Assembly: GCA_015501605.1 (NCBI GenBank) | Contig: JADNRZ010000017.1 | Coordinates: forward strand, 496,001 to 560,000 | DNA from: Panaeolus papilionaceus | Taxonomy: Eukaryota > Basidiomycota > Agaricomycetes > Agaricales | DNA length: 64,000 bases | Direction: 5' to 3' | Shown: positions 7,861 to 62,556 of the stretch, in pieces | Layout: every line of letters starts with the position of its first letter | Numbering within the stretch: position 1 is the first letter of the stretch | Program-made: the position numbers and the translations under genes | Notes under the pieces: model-generated | The model's input: the letters and a program-made list of their open reading frames with translations, nothing else | What the model was told of the DNA's origin: nothing | The model's database searches: none

Positions 7861-9668
7861 ATGTCTGCCGGCCAGCAGTCTTCATCCCAGCAGGCAGCAA
7901 GTTGGACGGAGCCCCCATGGTCGGGATGGATAGAGACAACCGGCGACGCTCTGCTTATCCTTGAGGCTGCGAAGCGTGGTATCATTCCCAGAGTCACTCG
8001 ACGACTCGTAGATTCAGAGAGGAAAATGATAATGTCTGGATCAGTGTTTGTTTTTGAGGAGGAAGAAAGCGGCATCAGGCGTTGGACCGATGGTTTCTAT
8101 TGGAGTCCAAGCAGAATATTGGGCAACTTTCTGCTTTATCGTGAGACGGACAAGCGTAGTGCTGCTCATAGAGGTGGCCGAGCAGACATTGACATGTCCG
8201 ATGTCAATGAAGCCACAAGAGTCGAAGGTCATTCACTCAGTCGCCCAAGGGCCGATAGCTCTGCAATGGGTGTAGATAGACATCGCGAAAGGAATCTGGT
8301 AGGCAGTCTTACCAATACCTACAAGTTCAAGCCCGATGGTCTCATGAAGAAGGTTTGTTGTATGTTGTTCCCACCGTGCACACCCGACTCACCCATTTAT
8401 ATTCTCCATAGACCTTTTCTCTTACCATCAACGGTGTTGCTCAGCATCTTATATCATATTACAAGGTTGAAGATGTTGAGAGTGGTCGTCTACGCTCACC
8501 ATCGTCTCTACCAGAGCTTTCGTCACTTGATATCAGTCCAGAATATCTCGATAAAACTCACTTCAGAAATCCACCCAAAGTCGAGATAGGCGTCGATGGT
8601 ATCCCTCGCTATCGTGGTGAGGCAGATGATATTGATACATCGCCCAACCCAACATCGCCCTTTTCTCCTAGTGCATGCACCATTCTCAGTCCACCAGAGC
8701 CAAAGCGTGGTAACACCAGGAACAGATTCGAGCCGTATAGGCCGAAACGTCCAAGGAAAAATACCCAAGACTCTCAGCCTGACAGCAACACCCCCCCTGC
8801 AGAATCTCCCATCGCAACAAACTCAACAATTCCTACTCAAACAAACGTCCAATACCCAAATCCCAGTGGTTCCAGTTCAGTTGTCCCAACCCCGCCTCCG
8901 CAAACCCCAACACCTCAACATTACCCGCCTTACGGTATTCCAGCATACTACCCTCCTTATGGCCATCCTCCACCCCCCGGAGCTGTATATGGACATCTTC
9001 CACCGAGTAACGGAGTTGGGGTGACCTATCTTCCACCACCCGTGCCCGGATCGACTGCTTCACCTCCATTGGTGCAACACCCTCAAGGATCAATGCAGCA
9101 GCATCAACCTATGTACACCGCTGCACAACCACCACCAGGCCCAGGCAGTGTCCCTGTTCCTTATACTTATCCGGGGTACCCCCCACCTCCCCATCCACAA
9201 TCGTCAGGCGTAGCGGTCGCTACGTCCGCACCAGAGGTGCATGGCAGTAATCCATCGCAAATATCCGGCCTCGCAGCAGCAGCGCCGCCACAACCCCAAG
9301 CAGTCACTGCTCAACAACCACAATCTGGTGCAGTGATGCCTTTGGGTCCCCCGCAACACCCGCTTCATCATGGGCAACCTGGTCAACCTTCACCGTATTA
9401 TCATCCATATTACGCTGCACCACCGCCCACGCATCCTTATCCCGCTCCGTATCAATGGCCTGCTCCATTCTACGCTCATATGCACCAGCCCCCACCTGGT
9501 GTGATGCCTCCTACCCATCCAACCCAGTCTCCTTACCTGATGGTCGGTGCAGTGAGTGCGTCTCCCATCTCACCAGCAGCCCTACCATCTCCAGTGGGCG
9601 GGCTTGATATGAGTAATCAAAGAAAGGAGAATTCTAGAGCGACCGAGTCCCCAGGCGATGTTACTTGA
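7861..9668 (+). CDS. Gti1/Pac2 (WOPR-domain) transcription factor
   Basis: Two exons, 7861-8352 and 8412-9668, split by a 59-nt intron, give 582 residues. Residues about 20-100 match the first WOPR half: GWIETTGDALLILEA, then a basic VTRRLVDSERK stretch, then RRWTDG..WSPSRILGNFL.YRE. Residues about 151-188 match the second half (TYKFKPDGLMKK, FSLTINGVAQHLISYYKVEDV). The intron falls inside the second half. Known family members (Wor1, Ryp1, Sge1, Gti1, Pac2) are DNA-binding regulators of morphological switching, nutrient response and effector expression. The C-terminal 350 residues are low-complexity and rich in Pro, Gln, Tyr and His, as is common for these regulators. It probably acts in the nucleus. 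The ATG opens the family-typical short N-terminus. Which WOPR subfamily it belongs to is not resolved. Confidence 0.95.
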
Positions 9669-13474: not shown

Positions 13475-13827
13475 ATGCGTTTCATCAACACTGTATTTTT
13501 GGCACTCTCCCTCCTTCTCGTCGGTGTATCAGCTATGTCTCTTCCTAAGGGTATGTATCTGCAAATTTCCATTATCCGATAGTATCACTCATATCACTCC
13601 AGAAGTAGACGCATACAGACAGGATGCCGACTTCCTTCAAGCTGCGAATAGAGGTTAATAGTTAGTTCCTTTCGTAGGGTGTGTCAAATCTCACATGGTT
13701 TGCAGAACTCCATGATTCCCCAGCTCAAAGCCGCAAGGATGCAGACTTCCTTGCACCAGTATCAGTGAGTGCAGCGGAATGTCCTCTTCACTGCGCCGAC
13801 TTATACAATATTTAATAGGAAAACTAA
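13475..13827 (+). CDS. Small secreted peptide, two-motif member (family member A)
   Basis: Four exons (13475-13550, 13603-13653, 13706-13764, 13819-13827) with introns of 52, 52 and 54 nt give 64 residues. Residues 1-20 form a strong signal peptide (basic start, then a Leu/Val-rich core ending VSA). The mature part contains the family motif twice: RQDADFL encoded by exon 2 and RKDADFLAP encoded by exon 3. It ends in VSEN. There are no cysteines and no CaaX box. The first intron sits just after the signal peptide in phase 1, as in members B, C and D, which supports common ancestry. The donor after exon 2 (GTTAAT) is weak; without splicing there the protein would stop after NRG. Function unknown; a processed signalling or effector-like peptide is inference. 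Confidence 0.66.
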
Positions 13828-14771
13828 CCGTCTCATTTATGTATGACTTTTGGCGCAGTGACAACTAGCCGAATTGCTGTATACCATGGAATGTGTCTGG
13901 GTGGGTTCCAGGGGACAAGATTGTCATATAAGCCCATCCGGATCCAAGCTCAAGGTAAATCCTTGTCGAATATTTTTGTATTACTTAGCGGAAACCGACA
14001 ATGTACATATAGTAGCCGATACCATGCAGATATCATTTGGCCTTGATTATGGATAGCTTGTAAGTGTGTGATTCAAACTTCGGAGCAGCGCTAGGGTAAA
14101 TGCCGAATCCAGCTTCTAGAATATATCCACTGCACTTTATATCCTAAGTCATTTGCCTCAACTTTCTAACTGGCATTGAATGCCGCGTACTATAGGCAGA
14201 AGTTTAGCCGGATAAGCCGACTAAGAGCTCGAACGACGCGTAGTGAGTGAACTTCGAATGAATTAATTGCCAGTGTGCGAATATGAGACACATGGGGCAT
14301 CGAAGGAGGGCAAACTTCTATCGGCATCAATATGATAGCAAGGAGCTCGGCCATCTACCACTGCTTTATCGACCACCTAGATGCATAGAACCTCAAGATG
14401 CACAAGGATATTTCCTAGTGTTATACTTCTTTGAGCACTTCAATATCAGCTTAGTTCGCGCAATAGCAGGTCACAAGAGCAGAGACATGATCACCTTCTG
14501 GGCATTTATCTGCCATAAAAGCAATCATAACATACATCGAAGTTATGTCGTTTGCTACATCATAGCGTTCTGATAGTACTACACAAGCCTTGTCACAACA
14601 CGGAGAATTTTGGGTATGAATAAGGGGAGAAAGCATTCGAAGGATAGTACGAAGGATCCCCCACCCTACCGTCCGGTTCCACATCCTGCCAATCTTTCCC
14701 CGTCGATCAACGTTCTCGAGCGTCTTCTCTCACCCTCACTCATAGCTCACTTGCCGTTAACGCCTCAAGTC

Positions 14772-15011
14772 ATGCATGTCATCAGAAAGATCTCTTTATT
14801 GTTATCCCTGTTGGCGATAGGCGTGGTAGCAAACCCACTCCCTGAAGGTAATTAACGTATTTTTAAGTTCGATGCTCTAGATCAGTTCCTTTGACAATAT
14901 CAAATTTCTATAGCCAAAGACACCCTACGTAGACAGGATACAGAGTTCCTCATAGTCGATCCTCAGAGGTCTGCACCGTCGTTTGCTGCAAGTGGCCTTG
15001 ACTCATTCTAA
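14772..15011 (+). CDS. Small secreted peptide (family member B)
   Basis: Two exons, 14772-14847 and 14914-15011, give 57 residues. Exon 1 is 76 nt, exactly as in member A, and ends in phase 1 after a signal peptide with a Leu-rich core and an Ala-Asn-Pro-Leu-Pro junction. Exon 2 carries the dibasic motif RRQDTEFL, followed by a divergent tail ending DSF. An alternative donor within exon 2 (GTCTGC, joined to an acceptor near 15026) would give a slightly shorter tail. Cysteine-free and secreted by prediction. Function unknown. Confidence 0.62.
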
Positions 15012-16688
15012 CTTCCTCGCCTACAGACGTTCGTGGTGAAAGCACCCGAGAACATCCGTGAGACGGGCATTCTTGCCTCTATCTGTGTAAGAAGATAGCG
15101 CGGCACCCTACTTTGTGGTATTTCTCACTCTTCTTCACTGTTCAGGGTCTAGATTAAGAATAATAATTCAATCGCCCAGGTAATTAGATGGGGGTTGGTA
15201 GACTGGTGACGCAGTCCCTCACCCGGGGGGTTTGTGGGTTTGTGTTGCCCGACGTCACCATTCGGCTTTGAGACTGTTTAAAATTCTACTTAATAAGCAG
15301 TAGTATGGGGTTGTTAGTCTTTTCGCATCTATGTTATTTATTTGGGAGCAGAATGCGCCGCGAAAGCTGAGAGTTGCAACCGTCGATTATTTAGAGTTTT
15401 ACTGGTGTTTTATTCACAGAGTAAAAGAGAACGTGCCGAGTCTCCCTAGTCGAGCACCCGCATTTTTCGATGCCATCTTTCAGGAATTCACCGCTGCTCT
15501 TCTTGTCCGCAGCATAGTCTTTAATAACTATGACTAAGCTTCGATTTGGTACGAGTAGATCCTTGGCATATCTTGGCGACCAAAGCCGAAGCGCTCAGCG
15601 CTCTGCAGGGTCCTCTGGACTGTCACGAATGCAGCTAGCAGCATGGAACTAATTTAGCAGCCCACCCATCGCCATCATAATCCTACAACCGCTTTACACC
15701 AGTCCTAGGATAACAGAGTGGAAGTTCATTATGAAAATTCCTTGCACCTAGACTCTATAGTAAATGGGTCTCAAAATACATACTCTCACTCACTAAGGTG
15801 CACTTGCGACTCGTAATTTGAAACTTGAGTGCTGATGGTCGAGGAAATTTGGAGCAAATTTAATTTGCGCTGAAATTCCCTTCGGCTCTCTCCGGTGGCT
15901 GTGTAAATGCGCATCTGTCTTCTTCTCTTGCTTGCTGTTTCTTTTCCGGATTTTACGACCTGCCCACGATGCTTATGTAGTATTGTAAGTTCACCGTACC
16001 ATGAATCCTTAATAAAACTGAAATTTCTCTCTTGAACAAGGCATCGTTGCTTGAAGATGTACTGAATACCTTTGAACACCCATAAATCTACCAATTGCCA
16101 CAAGCTAGTGCGGGCAAAATATGCTGCATGTGCTTGAAATCATCGATTGGAACAAGTCACATTCGAGAGAAAACGATTGAAGCTATCTGAAATCTGTCTA
16201 TGGCGATTAAAGATCAATATCTCATTTCAAGCGCTGCGTCGCTCGACTCGGGTCAGTCATGAGCAATGTTCTAGCGTTTAATATTCACATCTGCCTTTAT
16301 TTGCGAATAGCGGCCGAAGCATGAAAAGATGTCTGGAAAGGGAACTATGAGATCGAACTCATCGAATGTTCCTCGGTTTGAAATATTTCAGGTGTTCTTG
16401 CGAGCTCAGGCCTGTTAGGCTTGTTGTCAGTGAGGTGCCCGTTTCGCATCCATGGGTTCCAAGATCTACGCGATCAAGGCTATTTTCACCGTTTCAGTAC
16501 TATCACTGACAACATCGATCTATTTACGGCTGATGAAGAGAGTGTTCTAGTAGAAACAACCACCAGAATATGCGACCAACGAAGGCACATTCTCCCCTAT
16601 CCCTGGAAAACTCCTGACAAATTTAAATTAGAGCCAATGCACCTTCTTCCATTCCTGTGGCTCTCGAAGTTCAACGTGGTCTGCTCAG

Positions 16689-16695
16689 TATAAAT
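16689..16695 (+). promoter_or_regulatory. TATA box of peptide gene C
   Basis: TATAAAT, 68 nt upstream of the ATG of the secreted-peptide gene at 16763. Confidence 0.45.
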
Positions 16696-16762
16696 GGCTA
16701 CTCATATTTCATCCTTTGAGGTATAGTATTGCCCCACGACCCACTGCATTTCTACCAACACA

Positions 16763-17012
16763 ATGGATTTCAAAAGCGTCGTCTTTACCTTCATCCTCAT
16801 CGCCATCCCTGTTCTGTCTACACCACTGGCACCAAGTGAGTCTCATATAACCAAGCTTCACCTCTTTACGTTGCTGAAAATTTCTTTTCAGGAGAAGCCG
16901 CTCCTGAACCTATAGTCATCGCGCCTCAAGACACTAAATTCTTGGCTCCAGGTATGTTCACCATCTTCCTCAACATACACACTTGCTCATGGTTATCACA
17001 GTAAACAACTAA
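16763..17012 (+). CDS. Small secreted peptide (family member C)
   Basis: Three exons (16763-16835, 16892-16951, 17002-17012) give 47 residues. Signal peptide about 1-20, then a TPLAP junction, REAAPEP, and the motif APQDTKFLAP, ending VNN. The first intron is phase 1 straight after the leader. The last coding exon is only 11 nt, as in member D. The region following the leader (REAAPEP) aligns with RREAANPE of member D. No cysteine, no CaaX. Transcription is plausible because a TATA box lies 68 nt upstream. Function unknown. Confidence 0.72.
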
Positions 17013-17671
17013 AGGCACACAACTTTGTCATAGATATGGGTTGATGAAGAGCATGCGATGTATAGGATTATGAGTCTGACCAGAGACTTCTCTGAATTTC
17101 TACTCGAATTCGCGCCTCGAAATCGTTCTCCCTTATTTCTCAAGCCCGCACACATGTAAAGGCAGTTATATTGTGATTTATTTTGTTTCACGCTATCATC
17201 TGAACATCCAGTATTGGCACCTTTATTGTCTGTACCGCCTCGCTGATTACGCGGTGCAGGTGATACTTTTGCACAAGGTAGCTTTTCCCGTTGCGTTATT
17301 ATTAGATCGACGCTGGCTATTCCCGTGAGCAAAGAAGGCGTCTAAATTTACAACACTCGCGATCGATGGAACGTATGCCAATTTCCCTCCTATTAGCCAT
17401 TCAAGTTTAACTTTTCAAGATGGAAGACGTGCAATTGCAAGTAGTACCGGCCCTTCTCCTCTTCCAGTTACCTCTCTGGAACTTGAAGGGACTTACCTGG
17501 GGTTTATATCGGCCATTCGGGCTAGTTTTCATAAGTAACGGGCGGTTCTAGTGCTCAAATCATTCTCGTCACCGATCCACTCATACTTTTAACTTAGGAG
17601 AGCAATGTGGGATCGAGTGCTCATGACGTGTCTTATTGGGTGTTTGACTAGGCTGATATCGTGCCATTGGG

Positions 17672-17679
17672 TATAAAAG
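17672..17679 (+). promoter_or_regulatory. TATA box of peptide gene D
   Basis: TATAAAAG, 113 nt before the ATG at 17792. Confidence 0.45.
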
Positions 17680-17791
17680 GAACCCCCTCATCCAACTCAA
17701 GCATCCCCGCCTCATCCTTGAAGATTTCCCGACGCATACTGCAACACTCGTACTGTGAACTCTGCAATCCACCAAGTCTATAGCCATCCAA

Positions 17792-18084
17792 ATGCATCTC
17801 ACGAGCCTGCTGATTGTCCCCCTGATTTCCCTCACCACTCTGGCAGCACCTCTGTCCCCTGGTGAGACTCTATAGGTCAAGATATCTCTACCATTCATGT
17901 CACTGATCCCTCCAATCTAATCGACGATCATGCTTCTTCAGAAATCAGAAGAGAGGCTGCCAACCCTGAAGTCTTTCCTGTTCGCCAAGACACTCAGTTC
18001 CTGGCACCTTGTAAGTAGAGGTGTCTTCACTGTCGTGTTACAGTCATAAATAACGTCGAGCCGCTTTTTGTAGCTAATCAATGA
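17792..18084 (+). CDS. Small secreted peptide (family member D)
   Basis: Three exons (17792-17861, 17942-18010, 18074-18084) give 49 residues. Signal peptide about 1-18 ending LAAP, then EIRREAANPE, a short spacer, RQDTQFLAP and the tail SNQ. The dibasic IRREAA resembles a Kex2-type cleavage site followed by a dipeptidyl-aminopeptidase substrate. If cut there, it would release a peptide of about 21 residues (inference). A nearer acceptor at about 18052 would instead give a longer tail ending FVANQ; the 18074 acceptor was chosen because it reproduces the 11-nt last exon of member C. Confidence 0.72.
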
Positions 18085-18393: not shown

Positions 18394-20588
18394 CTAGATG
18401 ACACCTTCGTTTACCTGTGCAACATCAACATTCTCCTTGATCCAGTTCCAGGATTCCACGTTCTGCGAGAAATGCCGGTCCAAGTACAACTTCTCTAGAG
18501 GTCTTCTGAGCTCCATGCGAACCGTGATGACTCTGTGAAGAAGAGCCTTGCCCACGTTCGGATCCCCACAAACGGCAAGGAAACGTAGATCGGGCCATGG
18601 TACAGTATCTGTGGTGCTTTCGGTATTCAGGAGTGACTCGCAGGAGGATGATGAGAGAGGCATGATGACGTCGTCTCGGTCTGCGCTCCTGAGGTCGTCT
18701 AAATATATAGAGCCTGTCGACGCAGATGTATTCCTCCTTGGATGCGCGTTCGGGCTGGTGTCTGATCTGTGTATATCCGGGACGGGGTCTAAGTGGGTCT
18801 GTAACAAGTGGTACAAGAATGTGTTGGAGTGGACACGGTTCAATGCGAGGCGTTGAAGGAGGGGGAATGCTCGAGGGGGACTAGCATAAGGGCTGGATTC
18901 AAAGGCGGCGGGTATAATTTCCGTCATGTCGACAAGAGTGAGCGATGTTAGCAGAGGATACTCGACAGCACGGCGGGTGAAGCATTCCAAGATGCTTGTC
19001 CAGCGTGAAAGGTTAAGGTTTTTGAAGAGGAGGCTGGAGAGTGATGACATAGTGAAGAGGGATAGGAAAGCGTCTGTTCGTTCCTTGGCTATATATCCTG
19101 CACGGTTCGAAGAGAAGTTAATCATTAGTGTTTGGAGTGTGGGAATGGGAATGCTCGATTCAAGTAGAGAGAGGGAGATGCCGAGTGGGTCGTCGTCCAT
19201 GATTTGAAGCAGGGATTCGTTTGGATCAAAGTCAAGAAGGAAGAGAACCCGGAGATTCTGAAGACTTGCGAATATCTGCTTCAAGAGAAGATGGCATGGG
19301 AGGACGACTTGGCGAAGCTCGAGTGTGTTGAGCTGAGAGAAGGTATTCGGGGAAAGGCCACGATAGGCATGCGTCAATTGTGCGGCACGCAGATAGAGAA
19401 CTTGTGGCGAGGAGGAACACCATATTTCGTTCAAGGAGCTCGACGGCTTAGAAACGGGTGAAGTAGGCTCCCTGATGTATTTGCAAATCGTGGCAGGATC
19501 CTGCGTCGGAGTTGACACGCTTTCCTGAAGCGTAAACTCACAGAGCTTTGGACACGAAAAGACCCGAACAAAGGATGCAAGCTCGGATGTAAACCATTCC
19601 GATGTGTGAACCTGCAATGTCTTCAGTTCGGGAAGAGTGAGAACCATATCTCGGTGATGGATGTTGTTTGTGCCAGAGAGTTGTGTTAGAACGGTAGCTG
19701 GCTTCACATGCAGGACGAGATTTTGTAGTCGAGTGGAGCCCGAAATCATCGCACTCAACTTGGCAAAGTTGGGCCAAATGCCGTAACCTCGGATTTGGAG
19801 GGATTGCAAGTCTTGCAGCGGAAGACCGAGGTTGTCGATGTCCACGTTGTGGAGGGATAAACTAGTTAAGCGAGGCTGTTCATCTCCCAGCATGGGTGTG
19901 GGTAAAGCAACGCGACGTTCATTCGAGAAGTGTGAAAGGCTCAGATGTTCGAGGATGGGGACCGGGACATCTTGAACGAAAGAGAAGATCCGATCGTTCA
20001 TGCTTGTAATATGAAGTCGGCGCCAGCGCTTGCTATGGGGAATGAGCTTTTCCATGAGTATGTCCGTCGCGTCTTGCGACCAGAACGAGTCCAATTGGAT
20101 GTCAAGTGGGTATTCCCTTGACCGTTCAAGGTAGAGAGGCAAGAGTTCCATAGCGTCGGCTATATTTGAAGGAGATACTTGAATAACGCTCCACAAAGAA
20201 GGTGTGCTGAGGGCAATGTCCCGGAGCCAACGGGTGATCTTGCAGACCCTGGACCTGAACTCGGTGTTTGGACGACGTCCTAAGCCATCGAAGTAGCCAA
20301 GCTCAAAGATGTGAGAGACGAGCTCGGGCGGAATGGTTCCTATTGGCGAGATATTGGAGGCGGGCTGGTCATCTTCAACTTTCATGGTCTCGTCAACAAC
20401 TGTAAAAAAGGTAGAGGGGTGCGCGCCGTCCTCGAAGTAATCATGACCCGCCCTGCTGTCAGTCAATTACTATGACTTGGGATATATTGTGTGCTAGAAT
20501 CTTACAAAGACTCGTTGGTTGAAATTCTGGCATTTGCGAGGGTGAAAGGAGTCGCTACAGGTGACGCTGTTCCCTCCTTGATGACCAT
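18394..20588 (-). CDS. F-box protein
   Basis: Exons 20506-20588 and 18394-20455, separated by a 50-nt intron, give 714 residues. The F-box lies at about residues 66-115 (IGTIPPELVSHIFELGYFD ... VCKITRWLRDIALSTPSLWSVI), the pattern usual in Agaricomycete F-box proteins, which serve as substrate adaptors of SCF ubiquitin ligases. The rest is leucine-rich with irregular LRR-like segments. The start is uncertain: an upstream in-frame Met exists, and starting inside exon 2 at 20385 would still keep the F-box. The substrate is not predictable. Confidence 0.85.
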
Positions 20589-28277: not shown

Positions 28278-30373
28278 TCAATGAACGAAATGTTCCAATA
28301 GTGAAACGACTGACCTGCGATGGAATACCCAATATCCAGCCCCAGAGGGGTTGAGCAACACAGTCGAGTTCTTGAGACTGGCAGAGAGCTGTTCTCTGAT
28401 GCCTGTCCCACCTGACCCGGAGACGGACTCGTTGGACCTTCGAGCCTTAGTGTTTGAACGTGGATGACGACTTGTATTTTGGTCGCCTCTGACGTTTTTG
28501 CTCGACGGGAGTGGGAGAGCAGGGATGATTACACATCTCAACGCTGGGCATTGCACCATATATTGGTTTACCAGTGAGGCAAATGGGTTTGCCGGGCAAG
28601 CGTTCAAGCAGTGAGTCAAGTCCAGCTCGACGAGATTTGGTGTGCCATGCGGCGTTGGTAGACCCCAGCCATCCCAATCCCAATGGTCGTGTTGGGTTTC
28701 CACAGAATTCACTTGAGTCGATTGAAACATATTCGACAGACCATGCTTAATGATTAGTTTGGGTGATGCGCAGGCATTACTGCCAAGGATACTGAGCTTT
28801 TGGAGATGATTGAAGAGGGGCAACGATGTGTGAACATGGTGCAGAAAGTCCTGAAATCAATCTCTCAGGGTCTGTCATGCCGGAAAAGAGAGACTTTACA
28901 TACCTCGTCCATGCTCTCGATACGGATGACGAGTGTGCGAAGAGAGGGGAGTGTCCCTGCGATTGCGCTCAGCTGCGTCGATCCTACAAATAACCCCGAG
29001 GTAAACGCTGGAGAGCTAAATCCACGAGCTGATCCGCCATGGGATCGCTGGAAGGCGCATTGGACATGCTTCACCTTCTTGGGATCATCGGTGATGTTCA
29101 GAAGACGAGTGATCGAATTGGGATTTATGGTTCCGGCCGCTAGATGAATCGCAGGAGCCATCTGATTGACATAGGCAGGCGCTGTTGTTGGTATTTGAGG
29201 AGAGTGTGTTTGCGGATGTGGGGGAGGGGGGGTAACATGGTTGTTGGGCGATGAAACGTCGGTCCATGAAACCTTAAGCTTCTCGATAGGTCTCCCTTTG
29301 GCAAGATATTGGACCAGCTCAATAGGAGTCCTATCGGAATAAGATAGAGAAGTTAATTCTGGGAGTGCTTTCTTGAAGCTCGGATCGTTGCCTTCCAGTT
29401 GTTTACGAAGCATATCCTCCTTCCAGAACGCCTGGCTCGACTTTCGAACGTGCATGACGGTAAGTTCCTTCAACTTTCGCTGAGTTTGAAGGAACGAAGC
29501 CATACACTCCCCAAACTCGAGAGTTGTGCTGAAGGAAGTCAGCTGAAACGGCATCGGGGTCGGGGGGTGCTGCGACGCAGTGCTACCTGCTGCTCCTCCT
29601 GACACAGGTGAATGAGACAGCAACTTTCCTAAATGACGGTCGGAGCCTTCGGGGAATTGGAGCTTCAGCTCAAGGTGATCGAGATTGGAAAGGATCGAGA
29701 GTGCTGCCGCCACGATCGATATATATGACGTTGTCAACGCCGCGAGAGAGTTCGTAAGCGCAGCTGGAATCAAAGACAGTGTGATTGACTTGGGTGGTGT
29801 GAGCCTGTAAGTGCCAGAATTGACAGTGCCGGACTTGCCGGACATTGGAAAGGACAGAGATATGGATTTTGCGTGTCGCAACTGTCGATCGCGATGAATT
29901 TTATTGAGTTGCGCAAGTCGTGTGGAGTGTCGTTTGGACAGAGGTTGGCACATCCGCTGGTCTGTAAACACGAGGGACAGCGAATGAATATAGGACGGTA
30001 TGTCGCTTCCATCTAGGAAGCTGTGCGTTGGATTTGTCTGTTCTCCAAGCTTCGGCCTAGTATTATAGCTCTGCGACGTCGCATAGGCGCAAAGTGTAAG
30101 GAGCATATCGATTGTCGTATCTGCGTCCATGCGCGGAATATTGTGATAAAGAACACGTATTGCAGAGTGAGAGAGGTGACGTGAGGTATGTGTGAGATGA
30201 AAGAGGTCCGAGGAAGAACAGAAATTGAATATCTTCTCGAGGATTTCATTTGGGAGATGTTCAATTGAGGATGTCGTTGTGTCTGTCACATCGTGGGGAG
30301 CTTGATACGAAACGTTCTTCGACCTCTGTTTGCGCGAAAGGAGTGATGAGAGCTTGCTCAAGAGTGGATGCAT
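28278..30373 (-). CDS. F-box protein
   Basis: Exons 28904-30373 and 28278-28850 give 680 residues. The F-box lies at about residues 37-80 (IEHLPNEILEKIFNFCSSS ... HTSRHLSHSAIRVLYHNI). The middle contains leucine-rich strands and a Pro/His-rich low-complexity linker (about residues 370-400). The second exon continues LRR-like (FNHLQKLSILGSN, TPNLVELDLTHC). It differs from the other F-box genes in the window in lacking the WRNIALSTPELW motif, so it belongs to another subfamily. Substrate unknown. Confidence 0.85.
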
Positions 30374-44906: not shown

Positions 44907-46355
44907 ATGAGTTCAAACCAGCGAAATGTGTTTTCACGCTATTTCATTATCCTCAGCTCTGCACTAGTCGCTGGTTATGAACGTATGGACAAATCATTCT
45001 CACCTTCTGTGTCGATACAGAGACTACGTGCTCATAAATTCACGTTGTCTGATACCATTTACATTTATCACTTTGCATCAGCTACTCTATGGCTAACTCT
45101 TATGCAATCCCCTCCTTTCCCTACTAAACTCCTCATTCCAATCCTACTCGCTATCGGTCTCATTCTCCCAGTGTCAAATCAAATCCTCATTCCTGGCATT
45201 CCAGCTCTCACCTGGGTTCTTATGTGGTACTCGTCACGCTTCATGCCCTCATCATGGCGTCCTTCCATCTCAGTATCCCTCCTCCCAACCCTTGAATCCG
45301 TCCTCTACGGTGCCAACATCTCTGACATCCTCACCCGCTTTACCCACCCCGTCCTAGACGTCATCGCATGGCTCCCCTACGGTGTCATCCACTTTATCCT
45401 CCCCTTTGCAGGCGCCGTCTTCGTGTACCTCTTCCGTTCAAAACCCGTCCTCAAAATGTGGGCCAGAACCTTCGGGTACATGAACATCCTCGGCGTCCTC
45501 ATTCAAATCGTCCTTCCCTGTGCCCCACCCTGGTATGAGCTCATTCACGGCTTGACACCTGCCAATTACGCCATGAAGGGTTCTCCGGGGGGCTTGATGC
45601 GCATCGATCAGCTCTTTGGGGGAAACGGATACACGACGGGGTTCACCAACTCCCCACTCGTATTCGGCGCATTCCCTTCTCTGCACGCAGGGAACGCGAC
45701 ACTCGAAGCCCTCTTCTTCTCCCATTTCTTCCCACAGACGACGCGTTATGTCTGGGCATACGCTGGCATCCTGTACTGGAGCACCATGTACCTCACCCAT
45801 CACTACCTCATCGACGTCGTTGGCGGCGCGTGCCTCGCCATAGCCTCGTTCTACTTTTTCCTCCCCGACAACCTCAAGTCGACACAGGGTGCAACGGCAC
45901 CGCCTGCCAACTTTTCCGTGGCAGGCGCGTTGAGGGGCCACAGCAAGTACGAGCTGTATGACCTGGAAGACCCGCGTGCGGGGAGGGCTAATGGTGTTGG
46001 ATTGGGGCTGGGTGGTGCGGTCCCGGGGAGTGCGGGTGCGATGTTGGGTGCGAGGGAGTTTGATGTGGGGAGTGAGCCTGATTCGGAGGATGAGGAGATG
46101 GGGGATATTGCGTATAGGAGTCCGCAGCCTGCTGCTGCTGGATTCTCCCAAACTGGCACTGGCGGGGGTGCTGCGGTGAATGGCAATGGGAACGCAGCGA
46201 AGAAGGTCCCTGCGAATATCAATACGAGCGCGGGCAAGCCCAAGGGACATAGGCATACTGCGTCTATTGCGAGTTTGATTAGGGGTGATGAGAGGGGACC
46301 TGAGGATGGGTGGAGTCCGGTTGCTGGGAGCTTTGGAGTGACGAGGGGGGAGTGA
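44907..46355 (+). CDS. AUR1: Inositol phosphorylceramide synthase, AUR1 type
   Basis: Single exon, 482 residues. Several hydrophobic segments (about 50-110, 145-175, 185-205, 280-320) fit the polytopic Golgi enzyme that transfers phosphoinositol from phosphatidylinositol to ceramide, an essential fungal sphingolipid step. The PAP2-like catalytic motifs are GAFPSLHAG (254-262) and THHYLIDVVGG (297-307), carrying the His/His/Asp residues of the active site. The last 160 residues are a low-complexity Gly/Ala/Ser tail. The first 40 residues are atypical, so a later start or a hidden 5' intron is possible. It is the known target of aureobasidin-type inhibitors. Confidence 0.93.
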   Translation: MSSNQRNVFSRYFIILSSALVAGYERMDKSFSPSVSIQRLRAHKFTLSDTIYIYHFASATLWLTLMQSPPFPTKLLIPILLAIGLILPVSNQILIPGIPALTWVLMWYSSRFMPSSWRPSISVSLLPTLESVLYGANISDILTRFTHPVLDVIAWLPYGVIHFILPFAGAVFVYLFRSKPVLKMWARTFGYMNILGVLIQIVLPCAPPWYELIHGLTPANYAMKGSPGGLMRIDQLFGGNGYTTGFTNSPLVFGAFPSLHAGNATLEALFFSHFFPQTTRYVWAYAGILYWSTMYLTHHYLIDVVGGACLAIASFYFFLPDNLKSTQGATAPPANFSVAGALRGHSKYELYDLEDPRAGRANGVGLGLGGAVPGSAGAMLGAREFDVGSEPDSEDEEMGDIAYRSPQPAAAGFSQTGTGGGAAVNGNGNAAKKVPANINTSAGKPKGHRHTASIASLIRGDERGPEDGWSPVAGSFGVTRGE

Positions 46356-49797: not shown

Positions 49798-51070
49798 AGT
49801 GGGGAATTGAAGGAAGGAAGGGACAATATTGCCTACAAAATTGAGGGTTCGTGATAACAACTCGGAACGCAATGTGGGCTTTTATTCTCTGCATTGACAT
49901 CGATCGTGGGGTCCATGTCCTCGACGACGTCGCGGCCCTGGGCAGTCAAGTAGCTCTGAAACCACGATTGTGTGTGCATCTTCTGGTGTTTCCCTGACAG
50001 CGCGAACGGCCCACGGAAGAAGTCTATCCGCGTGTTTGAAGCAGTTGCACCTTCGTTTGGTATCGGAGGTTCATGGCCGCTCACTACCTTCGAATTCTTG
50101 ACGTGTGTATAATGCAATAGTAAGCTTTGTTCTGTTGGTATTTAATTATCGTGAGTAGCATTATCTGAGCGCTCCTGGATGACCGGTTTCACTCACAATC
50201 GGTGTATTCGGACACCATGCTCGTCTTTATGGCCGTCTCGAGATCATTATTCGATGTTATGCCAACGCTGGTACGTGTACCGAGTCGTCCCAAATGTGTT
50301 CTCGAGGGACTGATTGGGGACTCCAAAGGTTCACTCAGTGTTAAAGATCACTCAGGCTCGATAGGATCTCGAATGTCAGTTTGCGGTTGCAATATTGATC
50401 CTGTTGTGATCGCCCCTGCAATAATAATCTCGAGGTTTAAAGTATCCAAGAAAAATACTAACAGATGGACGGTACCACTGGAGTCGTTCAATTCCGAGTC
50501 AGAGCGACGATACACATCACTTTATTAATTTACCTATCACTTCTCGTCGCCGGCCATGTTCGTATCGGTTTGAGCGTCCTTATCTTGGCATTAGGCGAAT
50601 CATTCGGCGAACTCTGTCGCTTTGAAGGCCTTTTATTCAAAGTCAGCGGTCTTGTGCACTCTTCAGTGGGTCCCTCTGTTTTCTCACCTGCCCGGTCGGT
50701 AATGATGACGATCAAATTACAGTGCCCCTGAGTTTACTGAGGTTTGCTTCCTCCCACCATGATGACATCACACGATCATGCCATTTCGCCACTGCCAATG
50801 ACACCATCAGAGACCATCCCATGACGCAGTTCCGAGGATACTTCGCCATACTGGCAATTACTACTCTGTGTTATTTTAGACACAAGGATGTGTTTTCTTG
50901 CATTCTCTGATTCATCTTCTCACCAGCAGCAGAATCTGTTATTACTAACTAGAAGGTGACTAGCTCTAGTCTAGCCATTGGATTCGATGAGTCGAGGCTG
51001 ATTCTTTTCTGCTAGCCAAACTTGATGCCGGGATTGTTGAATTTGGAGACTCTATCAAAACATTTGAGAT
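49798..51070. other. Divergent intergenic region
   Basis: Lies between the divergently transcribed P450 and F-box genes. ORFs at 49833-50117 (minus) and 50202-50731 (plus) show no family motif. Probably promoter sequence of both genes. Confidence 0.35.
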
Positions 51071-53593
51071 ATGAGTGCATGGTGTGTGGATGGTATCCGA
51101 TCTACTTCAACAATGAAACTGGACTCTAACAGGCCATGGACGCAGGTTGTAGACGAATGGGCGAGGATATACGGCTCTTCTTGGTGGAAGAAGGGAACAC
51201 AGAGACTCTCGTTATCTAGAAGGGCACTTCAGCATCTGCAAAGAACCATGGCAAGACGAAATACGACGTCTCCAAAGCCCGATCCCCGTGATTCAGACGA
51301 TCCGTCATCACAGTCCATCTGTCGTCTCTGCTCCTCTAATGACCCACCCAACGAAGGAGAGGAAACAGACTGGATTCTAGCAGCGATCCAAGAACGAGAG
51401 TCAGAGCTCAGCATTCATACGCAATACCTGCAGCAAAGGCGTGTACTATCTGATGTCGTCGGCAATCGTCGCAGCCGTATCCCAGAAATAGCCCAACTGG
51501 AGCAGCAGATATCAAACCTCAAATCCCTGGTATCTCCCCTCCGTCGCCTACCGCCCGAGCTCCTGCAGGAAATATTCCTGATTGGAGCTGCGCAGCAAAA
51601 CATAAACAAGTTCATCTTTTTCGATGTCGTGCATGGCGAGCCTGTGTCGTCCTGGGCCGTAGCCGGGGTGTGTCGCAAGTGGCGGAACGTGGCGTTATCT
51701 ACCCCGGAATTGTGGAACGTTTTGCCACATCTCACATTTGAACGCGTGAATTTCCATGCCCATAAACTCCAGTATTCAAAATTCGAGTTCCTCCTTCGCT
51801 ATTCAGGGAACCTCCCCCTTCACCTCTATATTGAGGCGCGTACACCATGGCTGCCTGAAACGTGTCCAGTCCTGGATCTTTTGATTCAGCATTCGGAGCG
51901 CTGGGAGACGGTGGTCGTCAAAATGACAAGTTCGACGTTTGCTCGTCTTAATGGTGTCAGAAACCGAATACCTCGGTTACAGCGTCTGTCCCTGACACTC
52001 TGGCATTCATGGGCACATAATTCAGACGTTGACTGGGACATGTTTGCCATCGCCCCTCGCCTCACTGATGTTTCGTTCAAATGCCGCAGTGAAGTGGCTT
52101 TAAGGCTCCCAGAGTCGCAGCTTACACGATACTCACTCGAGTCCATGCATGTTGACGGTATTGGTCATGCGCTACAATCATCCTCGACTATTCAGGCACT
52201 CTACATCCGAAATGAACGCATGGATCCTCTGCACGATACGATTACTCTTCCCAACCTAACGAAACTATTCTTCCAATTCCGTCACTACCATAGCTCACCG
52301 AGTCTACTCGACAGCCTCTCCCTTCCGGCCTTACAAGAACTCGTGGTGTGTGGAGATCATCCCAATATCCTTGCCACTTCTCTTTCCCTGTTGAGAAGAG
52401 CGGGTGAAGCGTCGCCTTCAAGGAAATCGGCTCTGAAGAGCCTGCGTATCTCGGCCAGCACTGCCAATCTCGTTATGTCGAACTCTACCACACTTTTGTC
52501 GATCCTCGAGCTGGTTACTGAGCTTCAATTCCTGGATATACCACTCCCTTCAATCGACGTTCTGTCGCGTCTGTCTAAACTCGACCAGGAGCAGGTTATT
52601 GTTCCACTGCTAGGATGCTGCAAATTTCAAGTCGTTTCGCCAATTTCATCAGAGATCTGTTCAGCTCTGAACGAGCTCGGTGCAACGCGATGCAAACCAC
52701 TCCCCAGCATTGTATCGGACGAGGTAGAATCTACACCTGTGCAGCCTCTATCGTGTTTGGTGCTGGAGCATTGGAGCACCCATGATTCGCAGGAGTTTCT
52801 TGAACAGACGCATTACGATTTGGAGGTTTCTGGTGTTGATGGATCTTCCCAGTTACCACCTAGCTCAGCGCCAGTGCAAGCACCCTCGACCTCGACGTCC
52901 CCGTTTAACTTCCGAGGCCGGCGATCATCTCATACCAAGCTAAACCGGGCTGCGACCTCGAATGAACTGTGGACCTTGATTACCGAGGTGTTGCCGGAGA
53001 GGGAGAGGGGGGACGTCCCTGTTTGTGATCAGAGTGGGCATAGGCTTCATATTTCGAGAAGACAGGCGATGATGCTTGGTGAGAGACTTGGAGAGTATAG
53101 GTTGGATGGAGGAGTTGAGGTGCAGGATGTCATGGTGCGTTATTGGAGTTTTGATGAGTTGGTATGAGGACATGCTAACGCAAATGGTTTTTGGGTACAG
53201 ATGATGAAGAGGTTGTATTCGAAGTTGAAGTTGTTGAATGGGAGACTGCAGTGTACGCCGGCGAAATTCAAGTCAAGGTATCCTTATCTTGGAGAATTGG
53301 AGGGTGTTATCCGAGGGACGCTACATGCGTGGCAAGGAATCGTGGACCAGCATGCGTCGATGCTTCGGTGGGTTCATGATTCGACTGCTCTGTTTTATAG
53401 GTCCCAAGTAGACTGTATGTGTGCATCCTTCGTTGTGTTTTTCTGTTGCTAATGTTTTGTTTTTCTGATCGTGGTACGGATAGGCCCGAGTCGGCGTTTA
53501 TCCATCGATTCATGCTCGTCGTTCGAAGGCTCGCTGGCTCAGGAGTATAGAGCGAAGCTCGAGGAGATGTGCAACAAGATAGGAAGTATGTAA
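51071..53593 (+). CDS. Large F-box protein, paralogue 1
   Basis: Exons 51071-53161, 53201-53414 and 53484-53593 give 804 residues. An N-terminal SSNDPPNEGEE motif (88-98) and a predicted helix precede the F-box at about 157-225 (LRRLPPELLQEIFLIG ... VCRKWRNVALSTPELWNVLP). Irregular LRR-like strands follow. The last two exons encode a helical tail (LYSKLKLLNGRLQ, GTLHAWQGIVDQHASMLRWVHD). The layout, including the intron before that tail, matches the F-box genes at 56815-59237 and 59913-62556. Predicted SCF substrate adaptor; target unknown. Confidence 0.88.
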
Positions 53594-56814: not shown

Positions 56815-59237
56815 CTACATATAACCTAGTATTTGAAGCCAACATTCCTGTGAGAAGTAAATATAGAGTAGTTAGGAAAATAGAAAAAGTGAATTTGGAA
56901 GGTAGCTTACCGGTTTGAGGTCTAACATGATATCGTGGTACTTCGCCAAAAGATCAGCCCTCTTATAGTTCACGTCGAATCCTAAGGCGGTACCCTCGCT
57001 AGTGAGGCGGATAGCTGTAAAGAAATAAGCTAAATGCTGTCGAGGAGAAATATGCAATTCTTACGGTCATGCTGAGGAATGTAAACAAGCTCCAGCCTCG
57101 ATACATTCTGCACCCAATGGACAGATTGTATGTTTGCATCCGTAGAAAAGAGCCAGGCATCGATGGCCTTGTTCAGGGCCTCCTCAAGGTGATTAAGATA
57201 TGGTCGGTCGTTTTTATAGTCCTTTGAGAGAGCTTGCATGTCTTGTAGTAAGGATAGTGCGCAGTAGTCAATTTGTGCAGACTGTATCATAGTTCTGACC
57301 GTTAAAATGATTTCTAAGAGCAATGAAGGAAAAAAGAGTACACTGATATTCCGGATGTCGATCCAATCCTGTTGACACAGCTCCAGCTGCGCCAGCAACG
57401 CATGCACCTCCTTTCGTGACATATTCCGACTTCGGCTGTCCGGGAATAGCAACGAGCATGCCCTTTCTTTTCCCCATCGTGAAAAGAGAAGAAGATCTTG
57501 CAGCGTATTGACCGCTTCCCAGGAATTCGTGGACTCCTGGCGTTCCTCTGAATTTGCGCTCCCAGTTGGTATGGGCACTGGTACCACCGAAGGACTTTCG
57601 AGCATGGAATGAAGCTGTTGCAGATTCAGTTCATCCTGCTTATACCCCGCCGGGTCTCCGTGGGATTTAACCATCAAACACTTTAAGCCCTGAACCGGTT
57701 TTGTATCCGGTGAATTGAGTGACGGTTCACAGCGCAAGGTGGCGAAAGTATTCAAGGCCGATGATACCGAGGATGAGGAAGACATAACAAACTGGCACAC
57801 GATAAGTGATGGCAAAAGTCTAGACTCCTGCCGTAGGTCACTCAGGCGAAGGAGGGTTTGTGCAGGAAGTAAAGGACAATCCAGAAGCTGAAGGCAGGGA
57901 GTGAGAGCAAGCATGGCAATGAATGTGTCTTGGTGTCGAACAATGGCGAATGCGAGCAAATATGAAAGGGCCAGCTTCATGAGAGGAAATACTTGGGATG
58001 ATGCACTGGATGCGCGTTGTAGCAACGCAAGAGACGCGGAAAGTGCGTGCTCATCGTCTCCAGAAATTGCAAACTCCTCGAGCGCGGGACAAACGAGAGG
58101 ATTGATGCTTTGAGCCCCTCCATGGGAGGCAAAAACACAAGTCAAGGATGTAAGGCTGGGGAGCATTATCGTATCGGGTGTGACAGGTAAAACTACCCTT
58201 CTCAAGTTCAAACTTCGTAAAATAGACGTAGACGACCATAAATGATGGCTTTGAATATTGTCCAAGTTAAACACCCAAGACCAGTATGTGAAATGGGTGA
58301 TTTGGTCAGGAGGTAGTTGCATCTGGTGGTTCATGGCCGAGTAATGAGAGACTTGTTGGAGGTTGGGAGCTTCGGCAAACATGTGCCAATCTACAGGTAA
58401 ATCATCGTTGAACGGCCCCCATAACCTCAGTGTCAGGTATCGGAGACGGTGAAGTCGACCTTTCACGACGTTGAAGGTAGGTAACAGGCTGGCATGGAGG
58501 TTTATGTTAGCCGAAACCCACGTCTCTGCATTTTCAAGAAGCAGATCAACAACGAGGTGAGTCTTCACGTCGGGGTCCTTGCACTCGAGATAGAACTGAA
58601 GAGGCATTGCGCGCGACAGCCCAATCGTGTGCTTGAATAGTTCGTGTTGACGACTCTGCTTCTCAAAGCTCTCCTGGTCTTCGATGTAAAACGGCGGGAG
58701 GATATTCCAGAGCTCTGGAGTAGACAGTGCAATGTTTCTCCAGCTGTGACAGATCTGAGAAACGACCCAAGGCCGATCCCTTGCTTCGACATGCGGAAGC
58801 TCATCCAAAGAATCGCCTAGCTTGTGTTTTGAAGGTGATCCAAGTATGAAAACATGTTGCAGAATTTCGGGTGGCAGACGACGGATGGGGGAGACCACGA
58901 ACTTCATTTGCGCAATGCGACCCTCCACCTGAGTCTGTGCGTGTCGCATGATATCCAGAGAACCTGGAGGGTAGTCGAATCCTGTTGATATTTGGGCGTT
59001 AAGGAGCTTTAGCTGAGCACTATCATGTGCGATCATTTGCTGGAGTATGTCGCATTCATCGTCTTTGGGAGGTTCATTGCACTGATAGAGATGTGAAAAC
59101 TGGAGAGCGAGATCATTGTCGTGATGAAGGGGTTTTGGCTGCAGTCCTAATGCTTTCACTATCTTGACGGTTGCCGAATCCAAGTGTATCTTGAAAGGAT
59201 GTATACCCTGACCTCCGGAGCCACTGAAGGCCTCCAT
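56815..59237 (-). CDS. Large F-box protein, paralogue 2
   Basis: Exons 57342-59237, 57065-57281, 56911-57014 and 56815-56847 give 749 residues. It has CNEPPKDDE (53-61), a helical spacer, and the F-box from about 116 (VSPIRRLPPEILQHVFILG ... ICHSWRNIALSTPELWNILP), followed by leucine-rich segments. The tail LEEALNKAIDAWLFSTDANIQSVHWV parallels paralogue 3 (LEELETVLKDLLDTWIFAVDENLPSVHWV). The first intron (57282-57341) is 60 nt without a stop, so retention would keep the frame. The last exon is 33 nt. Predicted SCF adaptor. Confidence 0.86.
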
Positions 59238-59912: not shown

Positions 59913-62556
59913 TTAGTCTTTCAAGTTGCAAGTCGTCAACGTCAACGCTACAGGGGACGCGAAAGACTCAGAGCACTCACATATATTATCTGCGCAGATC
60001 GATAGTTCTTCAAAAAGGTTCTTGTACTCCTCGAAGTATTCGTACAATATGTGATCAAGATCTAGGACCAAAGCCATCGAAGTGCTCGTCGACCGAAGTG
60101 CTGAAGGCAAAAGAAAAAAAAAAGTTTGTCAGCCATTTTTATCAGAGTAGGAATGCAACGCACGATCTGTTTGAGGAATGTAAAATAAACCGACGTGCGG
60201 ATAGCGATCATAGTAAACCCAGTGCACAGAGGGGAGATTTTCATCAACGGCAAATATCCAGGTATCCAAGAGGTCTTTCAACACCGTTTCTAGCTCCTCA
60301 AGGTAGGGGTTCATTTTCTTGACTCTCGCAGGTGTATCCACAAGGCACCGTCGTAAGGAGTCAAATTCATATCCTTGGATTCTTGCAGTCTGTTGCAATG
60401 TTAATGTACACCTTATCCACACAAAAAAAGGCAGCGTGTCACATACCGCTATACAATGAATATCAATCTGCTCTGTTTTGCACAGCGCCAAGTGTGAAAC
60501 CAAAGTTTTGGCTTGTTGTCTTGAGATGTACATCTTGGAAAATGGATTTTGTGACACTGTGTTCCCATACCTCCTCTTGCCTCGTAAAATATTTTTTAGC
60601 AGCTTTTGAAGCGTCTTGGTCATCGCAACGCCTGGTATTCGAGTCTCATCCTCATTCTCGTCTGAAGTCGTTGAGTTGTGTTCAGCATCGTCACCTGTCG
60701 GTGCAGCAGTTTCCGATTGTCCCGTCCAAGAATATTCCAAAGTACGTTGGCACCGCGTCAATCTATCATCATATGCCGACCCTCCATAATAGGTCCCAAT
60801 TACAAAGCACTGCAACCTTTTAACGAATGCCATGTCAAGAGAATCATCGGAGACTTCCGCTGGAAGCTCGCACCGTGAACGACAGATGTTGTTCAAAGCA
60901 CGAGCGCACGAAGCTGATATCTGTGAGGACGTAGAAAACTTGCAATATTCCATCAATGGAACCAAGGCGCTTTCCGGGTCTGTTTGCGCCAAGCACTTGA
61001 GAACGCTGAGACCTGGTAAAGGGCAATCCAGGAACTGGATGCCAGCGGCCAGAGTGAGTATTGAAACGAATGATTCGGAATCTAAAGAAATGACAGGGAG
61101 GCATTTAGAGCCAAAAGATAGCTTCTTGAGGGGAAAAGCGTTGATAGTGGCTCGAGACGAACGTTGCAACAGGGCCAATAAGTCACTAAGAATAGTGGTA
61201 TGGCTCGCTGAGATATGTAGTTCCTCCAATGCCGGAAGAACGAGTTCGCCTAAGCCGCCGATGTCATCATAGGAATTTGAAATCATGTAAAATTGTGTGA
61301 GGTTGGGTAAAGTAAGGGATCCTCCCATGAGAGGCAAGAGACCCGATCCCAAGGATAACATTTGAAGGAAGGCTGCGTTGGATGAAATGATCTGTTGAAC
61401 TTGGGTTACTGACGAATGTGATCGGAGGGAACAACGCAGGAGCTGTGCTTGCGGGAATTGTAGTTCGACGTCGCTTGAGTAGCATGTAATGTCACTCAGT
61501 TGAGGGGCAATGGCAAAGATATCGCCGTCTACCGTATCATCCATTGATGCATACCACAGGGAAATTTGTAGACGCTTAAGCCTTGGTAAGCGTCCTTTGA
61601 TGTTCCCGAAAACAATGAGTTGCGAAGGACTCATGTTCATAGTAGCTGACTCCCATCTCTCCGAATGATGAACCAGAAAGTCAATGGTCGGGTCACGAGG
61701 CGTTCGTTTGGCTGTATCACTGTTGATGATAACATGCAAACCCATATCTTTCGAGCGCTCGACCATGGTTTTAAACATTGCATGGCGAAGCCGCATTTCA
61801 CCAGATAGCTGGACACGGCTCATCATGAGAGGCGGAAGATACGACCATAATTCCGGCATCGCAAGAGCAGTATTCCTCCAATGGCGGCAAACTTGCGAAA
61901 TAGCCCAAGGCCACTCTAGTGCGTCTTGTGGATAGTGTATTTCTGGATTCCGAGGACGAGGGAAGAGTCCAATGGTGAAAATGACCTGTAATAGCTCTGA
62001 CGGAAAACGACGAATCGCAGACGATAATGACTTCAGGTCTGAGATGTGGGCTTCCAGGCGGATCATTGGTGGGGGAGAACCCGACTTCGGTGCATTGGCA
62101 GGATCCCAAAAGAGTTTATCCCTCATTTCGTCTGTATACACCTTAAGTTGAGCTTCAGCTCCTTCAAGGGCATTGCGAAGCAGCACAGTTTCTTCTTCGT
62201 CTGGTGGGTCGTTAGAGGTGAGGAGGCGGGGAACTGGTGCACACATTCCGGATTTACTTCGCTTGACTGCTGCTTGGAAAGCTTTCCTCCTTCTCTTACC
62301 CCAGGAGGTAATAGATCGCGTCTTCCTCCTGCGAACTAGACTGAGCGCATGGCGATATGCCTTTGCCGTGCTCTTTACACTCTAAACATCGACAAGGGGT
62401 TGTAAGTAACCTGACCTGTGCTGGGATTGATGCTGGGCTCACATCGTACTTGACCCTCATTTTCCATAGGAGATGCACAAGGGAAAAACGGGTTTGGTAG
62501 TAAGTGTCGCGCAGAGCTGCACGAGCTCGTCTTGCGTATGTCCCTAGACTCTGCAT
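59913..62556 (-). CDS. Large F-box protein, paralogue 3
   Basis: Exons 62455-62556, 60447-62381, 60164-60389, 59981-60100 and a 5-nt terminal exon at 59913-59917 give about 795 residues. A basic N-terminus (KAYRHALSLVRRRKTRS) leads to SNDPPDEEE and the F-box from about 158 (AIRRFPSELLQVIFTIG ... VCRHWRNTALAMPELWSYLP). The tail contains NPYLEELETVLKDLLDTWIF. The intron at 60390-60446 is 57 nt and stop-free. The first exon was added because it continues the frame in phase 0 and makes the length agree with paralogues 1 and 2; a start at 62246 is the fallback. The final 5-nt exon is the least certain part. Confidence 0.82.

Follow-up and report, generated by a model that had tools for sequence, protein, structure and literature searches.

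An apparently undescribed family of very short genes for putative secreted peptides ending in FL in Panaeolus papilionaceus

The 64,000-nucleotide stretch of the Panaeolus papilionaceus genome analysed here (the window; C9:496001-560000, from a genome of 50.9 Mb in 71 contigs) carries on its plus strand, at 13475-18084, a cluster of four mini-genes, g1 to g4, which belong to a real, apparently undescribed multigene family, ordinary in kind, unusual in anatomy. The family numbers at least nine genes in this genome: the four of the window, one isolated gene on contig C5, and four more in tandem on contig C67 (C67a to C67d). The same architecture is seen at all three loci, and the full repeats of C67b differ at third positions only; on such sequence evidence the reality of the genes is well supported. 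Our favoured reading, to which we give a probability of roughly 0.45, is that they encode short, cysteine-free secreted pro-peptides, similar to KEX2-processed repeat proteins (KEPs), that would release xDxxFL peptides, and the released peptides may serve in signalling or defence. The chief rival, a genuine possibility, takes the whole short chain as the active form.

The four genes of the window

The models of g1-g4 were rebuilt by hand from the sequence, and their splice sites are predictions. Each of the four has a signal-peptide-like leader, then a phase-1 intron, and then [RP][QK]D[TA]xFL near the C-terminus, and the post-leader parts of the modelled proteins contain no cysteine; on leader, intron phase and cysteines the sequence-only reading of this DNA thus holds for all four. 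Signal peptides were judged by hydropathy with cleavage sites placed by eye, without a trained predictor, and on that basis a hydrophobic leader with a plausible cleavage site is present in all nine genes of the family. The parts of the window genes are as follows.

13475-13827, plus strand: g1, 64 amino acids, four exons, motif in two copies
13475..13550, plus: g1 exon 1, leader MRFINTVFLALSLLLVGVSAMSLPK; phase-1 intron 13551-13602 next
13603..13653, plus: g1 exon 2, EVDAYRQDADFLQAANR; motif copy 1 at 13617-13637
13654-13705, plus: g1 second intron, weak donor GTTAAT
13706..13764, plus: g1 exon 3, ELHDSPAQSRKDADFLAPVS; motif copy 2 at 13732-13752
13819..13827, plus: g1 final exon, EN and stop, preceded by the last intron, 13765-13818
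14772..14847, plus: g2 exon 1 (start of the gene), leader MHVIRKISLLLSLLAIGVVANPLPE; phase-1 intron 14848-14913 next
14914..14968, plus: g2 exon 2, AKDTLRRQDTEFLIVDPQ...; motif at 14931-14951, C-terminus uncertain
15027..15039, plus: g2 possible final exon (...RSW and stop) of the sequence-only reading, whose model has 47 amino acids; doubtful
16763-17012, plus: g3, 47 amino acids
16763..16835, plus: g3 exon 1, leader MDFKSVVFTFILIAIPVLSTPLAP; phase-1 intron 16836-16891 next
16892..16951, plus: g3 exon 2, REAAPEPIVIAPQDTKFLAP; motif at 16924-16944
17002..17012, plus: g3 final exon, VNN (first codon split) and stop, preceded by the last intron, 16952-17001
17792-18084, plus: g4, 49 amino acids
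17792..17861, plus: g4 exon 1, leader MHLTSLLIVPLISLTTLAAPLSP; phase-1 intron 17862-17941 next
17942..18010, plus: g4 exon 2, EIRREAANPEVFPVRQDTQFLAP; motif at 17983-18003
18074..18084, plus: g4 final exon, SNQ (first codon split) and stop, preceded by the last intron, 18011-18073

The nine modelled introns of the window measure 50-80 nucleotides (nt) and all run GT...AG, with a YTRAY branch-like site in three of them. Two have weak donors, namely the second intron of g1 and the second intron of g2 (GTCTGC, at 14969), the latter with CTAAC and CTACAG at its 3' end despite the poor donor. Because GTCTGC is poor, and the frame read without this splice ends ...IVDPQRSAPSFAASGLDSF and a stop, the C-terminus of g2 is uncertain. 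Alternative acceptors are possible in some genes of the family.

The earlier proposal of four secreted-peptide mini-genes is confirmed as an observation by the rebuilt models, by simulation and by a scanner. The strict motif, [RP][QK]D[TA].FL, occurs five times in the six frames of the window, every copy within g1-g4, against a mean of 0.017 and a maximum of 1 in 60 windows simulated under a Markov-1 model. Scanning for a hydrophobic leader, an intron of any phase and a relaxed motif returned exactly g1-g4 in the window and nothing in four simulated windows. With a still wider motif the scanner added one unrelated-looking place, at 50373 of the window, and for g1 and g2 the first solution of the wider-motif scanner was a different, phase-0 splice.

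Extent of the family and signs of selection

Searched as degenerate DNA, R[QK]D[TA]xFL matches at 18 places in the genome, four of them the window's own (pattern counts here sum forward and reverse matches, and controls use the reversed pattern). Two of the 14 places outside the window, the C5 gene and C67c, have a hydrophobic leader less than 400 nt upstream, and both pass a scanner for leader, phase-1 intron and motif. The flanks of C67c, when read, yielded C67a, C67b and C67d, all on its strand and with starts within 4.5 kb; these three lack the strict motif and were identified by position and anatomy. The claim of a multigene family is thereby upheld, with the same anatomy at two further loci.

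C5, start 187341, minus strand: MPFISTIFLAGSLFLVNLAAMPVAK, intron, EPAIHSGEMRKDADFLSPPH, stop
C67, start 1071820, same strand as C67c: C67a, ends ...IAPIAPPGKDPVFL, intron, stop
C67, start 1073370, same strand as C67c: C67b, MNTRTLLFTLCLLVLGAVATPVP, intron, HTGNVAARKFEEIEPVFLAREPTSRTGEEIDPVFLAREPTRTGEEIDPVFLAREPTSRTGEEIDPIFL, intron, stop
C67, start 1075143, same strand as C67c: C67d, MFFNAKNLLLVISLLAVTALSTPVATP, intron, VELPKPGNAGAGSESHANSGVRAGSAFL, intron, stop
C67, start 1076307: C67c, MQLKCLVLILNLMAATLASPLLT, intron, SERRTTDVDVSVLGRQSESRQDTEFL, intron, N and stop, or FL, intron and then stop at once

Further pattern searches of the genome gave no new member among the places read. They returned 10 places (4 known and 6 others, against 7 in the control), 32 places (4 known, 26 others read and 2 unread, against 27), 25 places (4 known and 21 others, against 17), 7 places (the C67a, C67b and C67c cores and 4 others, against 11) and 28 places (4 known, 3 already in the set, 6 read and 15 unread, against 16). 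Since 2 of the 32 and 15 of the 28 places are unread, six of these 15 having FF instead of FL, the count of nine is a minimum. Searching the genome with protein queries is insensitive here: the second part of g4 matched only itself, g1 found its own exons only and missed C5, and the C67b repeats matched only themselves.

The whole anatomy was also scanned for: leader, phase-1 intron, an exon that closes with F[LIV] and up to three more residues, an intron, and no more than four codons to the stop. This scanner recovered g3, g4 and C67a-d, each in between one and four splice solutions; because it demands phase 1 and three exons by design, it is blind to g1, g2 and C5. In 191,589 bp from elsewhere in the same genome (some of these loci overlap) it returned nothing, and ten simulated 64-kb windows gave one match. 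Chance open reading frames (ORFs) are thus disfavoured by the simulations of the motif, of leader, intron and motif together, and of the full anatomy. The notion that the genes are an artefact, chance frames joined by imagined introns, could draw on introns that are predicted only, on the existence of alternative splices and on branch-like sites in just three of nine window introns, but the rarity of simulated matches and the recurrence of the same anatomy at independent loci make it very improbable.

Aligning the nine genes leaves just M1, a single leader Leu and the terminal FL as invariant positions, so that the shared [RP][QK]D[TA]xFL, though it describes g1-g4, is too narrow for the family. 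An Asp stands three residues before the Phe in eight of the nine (C67d has Gly), xP[LV] follows the presumed leader cut in eight (g1 has MSL), and Arg occupies motif position 1 in six (g1, g2, g4, C5, C67c and C67d); the stretch between leader and core cannot be aligned across the nine. The AP and short tail that had been described after the motif are found in g1, g3 and g4, but in their place stand SPPH in C5 and IVDPQ... in g2, and the C67 genes stop at FL itself or after one more residue. FL lies at or near the C-terminus in all but the uncertain model of g2. A feature absent from the sequence-only reading is a last intron placed 0-4 codons after FL in seven of the nine genes (g1, g3, g4 and C67a-d), whose final exon is the stop alone or up to three residues and the stop; C5 has no such exon and g2 is unclear. 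When the last introns are read through, the resulting tails look by eye unrelated between genes, and intron retention as a switch of the C-terminus was accordingly set aside, with no sign by eye of a conserved alternative tail.

C67b holds four repeats ending in FL, with Arg in the spacers between the cores. Its three full repeats (13 codons compared; the partial fourth, with a V-to-I change, was excluded) show 19 pairwise differences, all at third positions, 17 of them synonymous and 2 of them E/D changes, for proportions of synonymous and nonsynonymous differences (pS and pN) of 0.63 and 0.022. Because these repeats were not chosen by the motif, they give the clearest indication that the sequence is coding and under purifying selection. 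For the codons of the strict motif (21 pairs among seven copies), pS is 0.82 and pN is 0.18, but the estimate is biased and partly circular since the copies were picked by the same protein motif. The further claim that the leader diverges while the motif is kept is not cleanly supported: between g1 and C5 the leader exon, on which the search did not draw, is conserved as well (pS 0.75, pN 0.23). Selection may act on a released mature peptide. In sum, the small, cysteine-free, apparently secreted family of the original interpretation stands, with the full C67b repeats conserved as protein, and its account of motif, tail and leader needs correcting.

Another reading takes the genes for decaying remnants, partly or wholly pseudogenes, of a secreted protein or peptide family that was formerly larger. 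Their great shortness and divergence would suit it, as would the lack of a convincing C-terminus in g2 and, in C5, a first intron lengthened to 95 nt and a missing last intron. However, start-to-stop frames are modelled intact in all nine (with reservations for g2 and C5), the full C67b repeats keep their differences to third positions, and pN lies well below pS in the g1/C5 leader exon; we consider decay unlikely.

Processing of the peptides and comparison with known systems

The route that we infer from the sequence, from splicing and secretion through cleavage and pyroglutamate formation to extracellular action and function, would begin with removal of the signal peptide in the endoplasmic reticulum, which would leave an N-terminus of xP[LV] in eight of the nine. 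A kexin-type protease of the Golgi would then cut at a basic residue before the core, using the Arg at motif position 1 in six genes and the inter-repeat Arg in C67b, and would set free the C-terminal core, which reads (Q/K)D(T/A)xFL in the window genes and may carry a short tail. One core would come from most genes, two from g1 and four from C67b; cores that start with Gln could cyclise to pyroglutamate, and the peptide would act extracellularly, either in signalling or on other organisms. In favour of this reading are the excess of motif and anatomy over the simulations; the succession of leader, phase-1 intron, terminal FL, last intron and stop in g3, g4 and the four C67 genes; the four cores of C67b with their Arg-containing spacers and third-position differences, and the two cores of g1; and TATA[AT][AG] at 40-140 nt upstream in five of the nine genes, compared with 7.9% of random stretches (binomial 3e-4), for a pattern picked after the upstream sequences had been inspected. 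The pyroglutamate ends and single-Arg cleavage described for agaricomycete peptides by Vogt et al. 2022, given below, point the same way.

Several observations count against release of such peptides as the reading of choice. A dibasic pair directly precedes the core only in g2, and C67b has none, so that a canonical Kex2 site is absent from most members. There is a single core in seven of the nine genes. Position 1 of the motif is Pro in g3, Gly in C67a and Glu in C67b, and the Arg of C5 and C67c came from a pattern that demanded Arg or Ser there. The motif by itself matched at the 18 genomic places given above and at 18 in the reversed-pattern control, so that outside the window cluster it is at chance level. 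In a database of about 5.8 billion proteins, an alignment of the four window proteins gave 50 candidates and a C67b query 130, none at E<=10. Plain TATA lies upstream of five of the nine genes, compared with 24% of random stretches (p ~0.04). The TATAAA elements of the window are these.

16689..16694, plus: TATAAA, 74 nt upstream of the g3 ATG
17672..17677, plus: TATAAA, 120 nt upstream of the g4 ATG

The single cores also suit the chief rival, in which the unprocessed chain of about 20-40 residues (longer in C67b) would be active and the C-terminal xxFL would be a binding or sorting end, a layout like that of the Piriformospora indica DELD proteins with their RSIDELD. Three of the nine genes have no Arg at position 1, FL sits at or near the C-terminus outside the doubtful g2 model, and DELD offers a precedent, a lineage-specific secreted family sharing only a C-terminal heptamer (PMC3192844). 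Against it stand the internal repeats of the core in g1 and C67b, whose copies are separated by Arg and fit better with the release of several peptides, and the stretch from leader to core, which is not alignable.

The KEPs of Agaricomycetes, the subject of Umemura 2020 (PMC7329392) and Vogt 2022 and reportedly of Le Marquer 2019 (PMC6339444), resemble the family in their short secretory precursors, in cores starting with Gln and in the repeated cores seen in C67b and g1. Vogt et al. 2022 (PMC9769878) describe agaricomycete KEPs as a signal peptide and repeated cores between dibasic sites, report the N-terminal Gln of agaricomycete secreted peptides as pyroglutamate, and mention products apparently cut after a single Arg in P. 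pastoris; single-Arg cleavage, suggested there for some KEPs, is a further likeness. The peptides of the present family would arise in this manner if cleavage takes place at Arg|QDTxFL. Unlike KEPs, the family has mostly one core (two in g1 and four in C67b), a dibasic KR, RR or KK at the core only in g2, a C-terminal FL where Trp ends (APSW, AADW) are quoted for KEPs in that paper, and a last intron just before the stop. With a single core lacking an adjacent dibasic site in the majority of members, the family does not consist of KEPs by definition.

Published KEP screens, as described in PMC9769878 and PMC7329392, start from predicted proteins and seek repeats and KEX2 sites, and a mostly one-core, monobasic family with tiny exons would escape them. 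Most KEP peptides are not known to have a function, and six kep knock-outs gave no visible phenotype (PMC9769878). If the present genes are expressed and processed, their products would be a further class of mushroom peptides with a candidate role in signalling or interaction. We put forward tentatively the fuller version of this idea, a hitherto undescribed class of mushroom peptide signals that is mostly single-core, monobasic and FL-terminal, that has radiated into tandem clusters at several loci, and whose last intron isolates the stop codon (0-3 codons), hence systematically missed by gene finders and by KEP screens based on repeats or dibasic sites. The anatomy of leader, phase-1 intron, xxFL, last intron and stop is directly searchable in the DNA of other Agaricales.

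Other known systems are more distant. The DELD proteins are likewise a lineage-specific multigene secreted family with a 7-residue C-terminal motif, but they are 101-135 amino acids long, His/Ala-rich and predicted to form two helices, whereas the present family has 45-91 amino acids and another motif (PMC3192844); C-terminal RSIDELD was sought in the nine-gene alignment and not found, the ends being FL, FLAPxxN-like or SPPH. Laccaria bicolor MiSSP8 is likewise a secreted precursor from a mushroom, and Kex2 is said to act on it; PMC7329392, whose description is the one compared here, calls it repetitive with Kex2 recognition sites. Ascomycete alpha-type pheromone precursors, of KEP type, share the leader, the spacer and a short C-terminal or repeated peptide, as well as EA/XP dipeptides after Arg in g3 and g4; unlike them, the family has no dibasic-flanked repeated pheromone cores, and its XP/XA runs form, by eye, no regular dipeptide ladder up to the core. 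Basidiomycete a-type mating pheromone genes are also very short and easily missed. The family differs from them in having a secretion leader and no CaaX end; pheromones of the a-type are made in the cytoplasm, carry a prenyl group and leave the cell through ABC transporters (PMC9769878). With no Cys near any C-terminus of the nine genes, CaaX pheromones are ruled out, as had been claimed for the window genes.

The leader and the repeated cores of C67b and g1 would also suit RiPP precursors of the dikaritin type, in which UstYa (DUF3328) enzymes would cyclise the cores, and UstYa genes are present in the genome. However, none of the 13 UstYa (PF11807) matches listed lies on C5, C9 or C67, which speaks against cyclised dikaritins, and the cores have no Tyr; we regard this origin as barely credible.

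The claim that no named family shows this pattern agrees with the searches made. Eight of the nine proteins (C67d left out) gave nothing above the cut-off in Pfam, the best score being UBM at 16.7 bits against a cut-off of 23.3, for C67b; five of the nine had no match at E<=0.1 in NCBIfam, a prokaryote library; the alignment of the four window proteins found nothing at E<=1 among PDB sequences; and no such family was described, by peptide strings or by topic, in open-licence papers at listing level. As a positive control for the protein database, the PAP2/AUR1-like gene of the window (44907-46355) matched a Panaeolus cyanescens protein at 84% identity over 87% of the query, followed by Psilocybe cubensis (64%), Gymnopilus dilepis (63%) and many other Agaricales. 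Annotated Agaricales proteomes are thus present in that database, which does not imply that genes this small are annotated in them, and a family missing from it may be missing from those species too or may just lack annotation there.

Surroundings of the three loci

Pfam matches around the three loci differ (10 window ORFs and 5 flanking ORFs scanned). Structural RNA was considered for the window and rejected, with no Rfam match at the gathering score and no tRNA. Upstream of the window cluster, on the same strand, lies a gene with a Gti1/Pac2 (WOPR) domain (E 5.4e-50). WOPR proteins are regulators of morphology and of secreted-protein genes. Five long intronless ORFs of the window look by eye like F-box/leucine-rich-repeat genes, and a Pfam scan of the first three matched F-box only in 28865-30373.

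7861-8589, plus: Gti1/Pac2 (WOPR) domain gene
18394-20466, minus: long intronless ORF, F-box/leucine-rich-repeat-like
28865-30373, minus: the same kind, F-box matched
51071-53167, plus: the same kind
57030-59237, minus: the same kind
60129-62246, minus: the same kind

On C5, near 184.2 kb and about 3 kb from the peptide gene, an ORF with a hydrophobic leader and CNTGQINCC (2446-2685 of its stretch) looks by eye like a class I hydrophobin; Pfam gave no match to its 79-residue piece. The C67 cluster is followed directly, on its downstream side, by pieces of a urease gene (Urease_beta, Urease_alpha, Amidohydro_1). The UstYa matches listed are grouped on C2, C12 and C50, possible dikaritin-like RiPP clusters elsewhere in the genome.

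C67:1078000-1082000, positions 76-546 and 728-1285 of that stretch: urease pieces (Pfam)
C2:705021-711392: UstYa (DUF3328) matches
C12:356955-382859: UstYa matches
C50:39704-41330: UstYa matches
C70:424211-424831: UstYa match
C27:330782-331015: UstYa match

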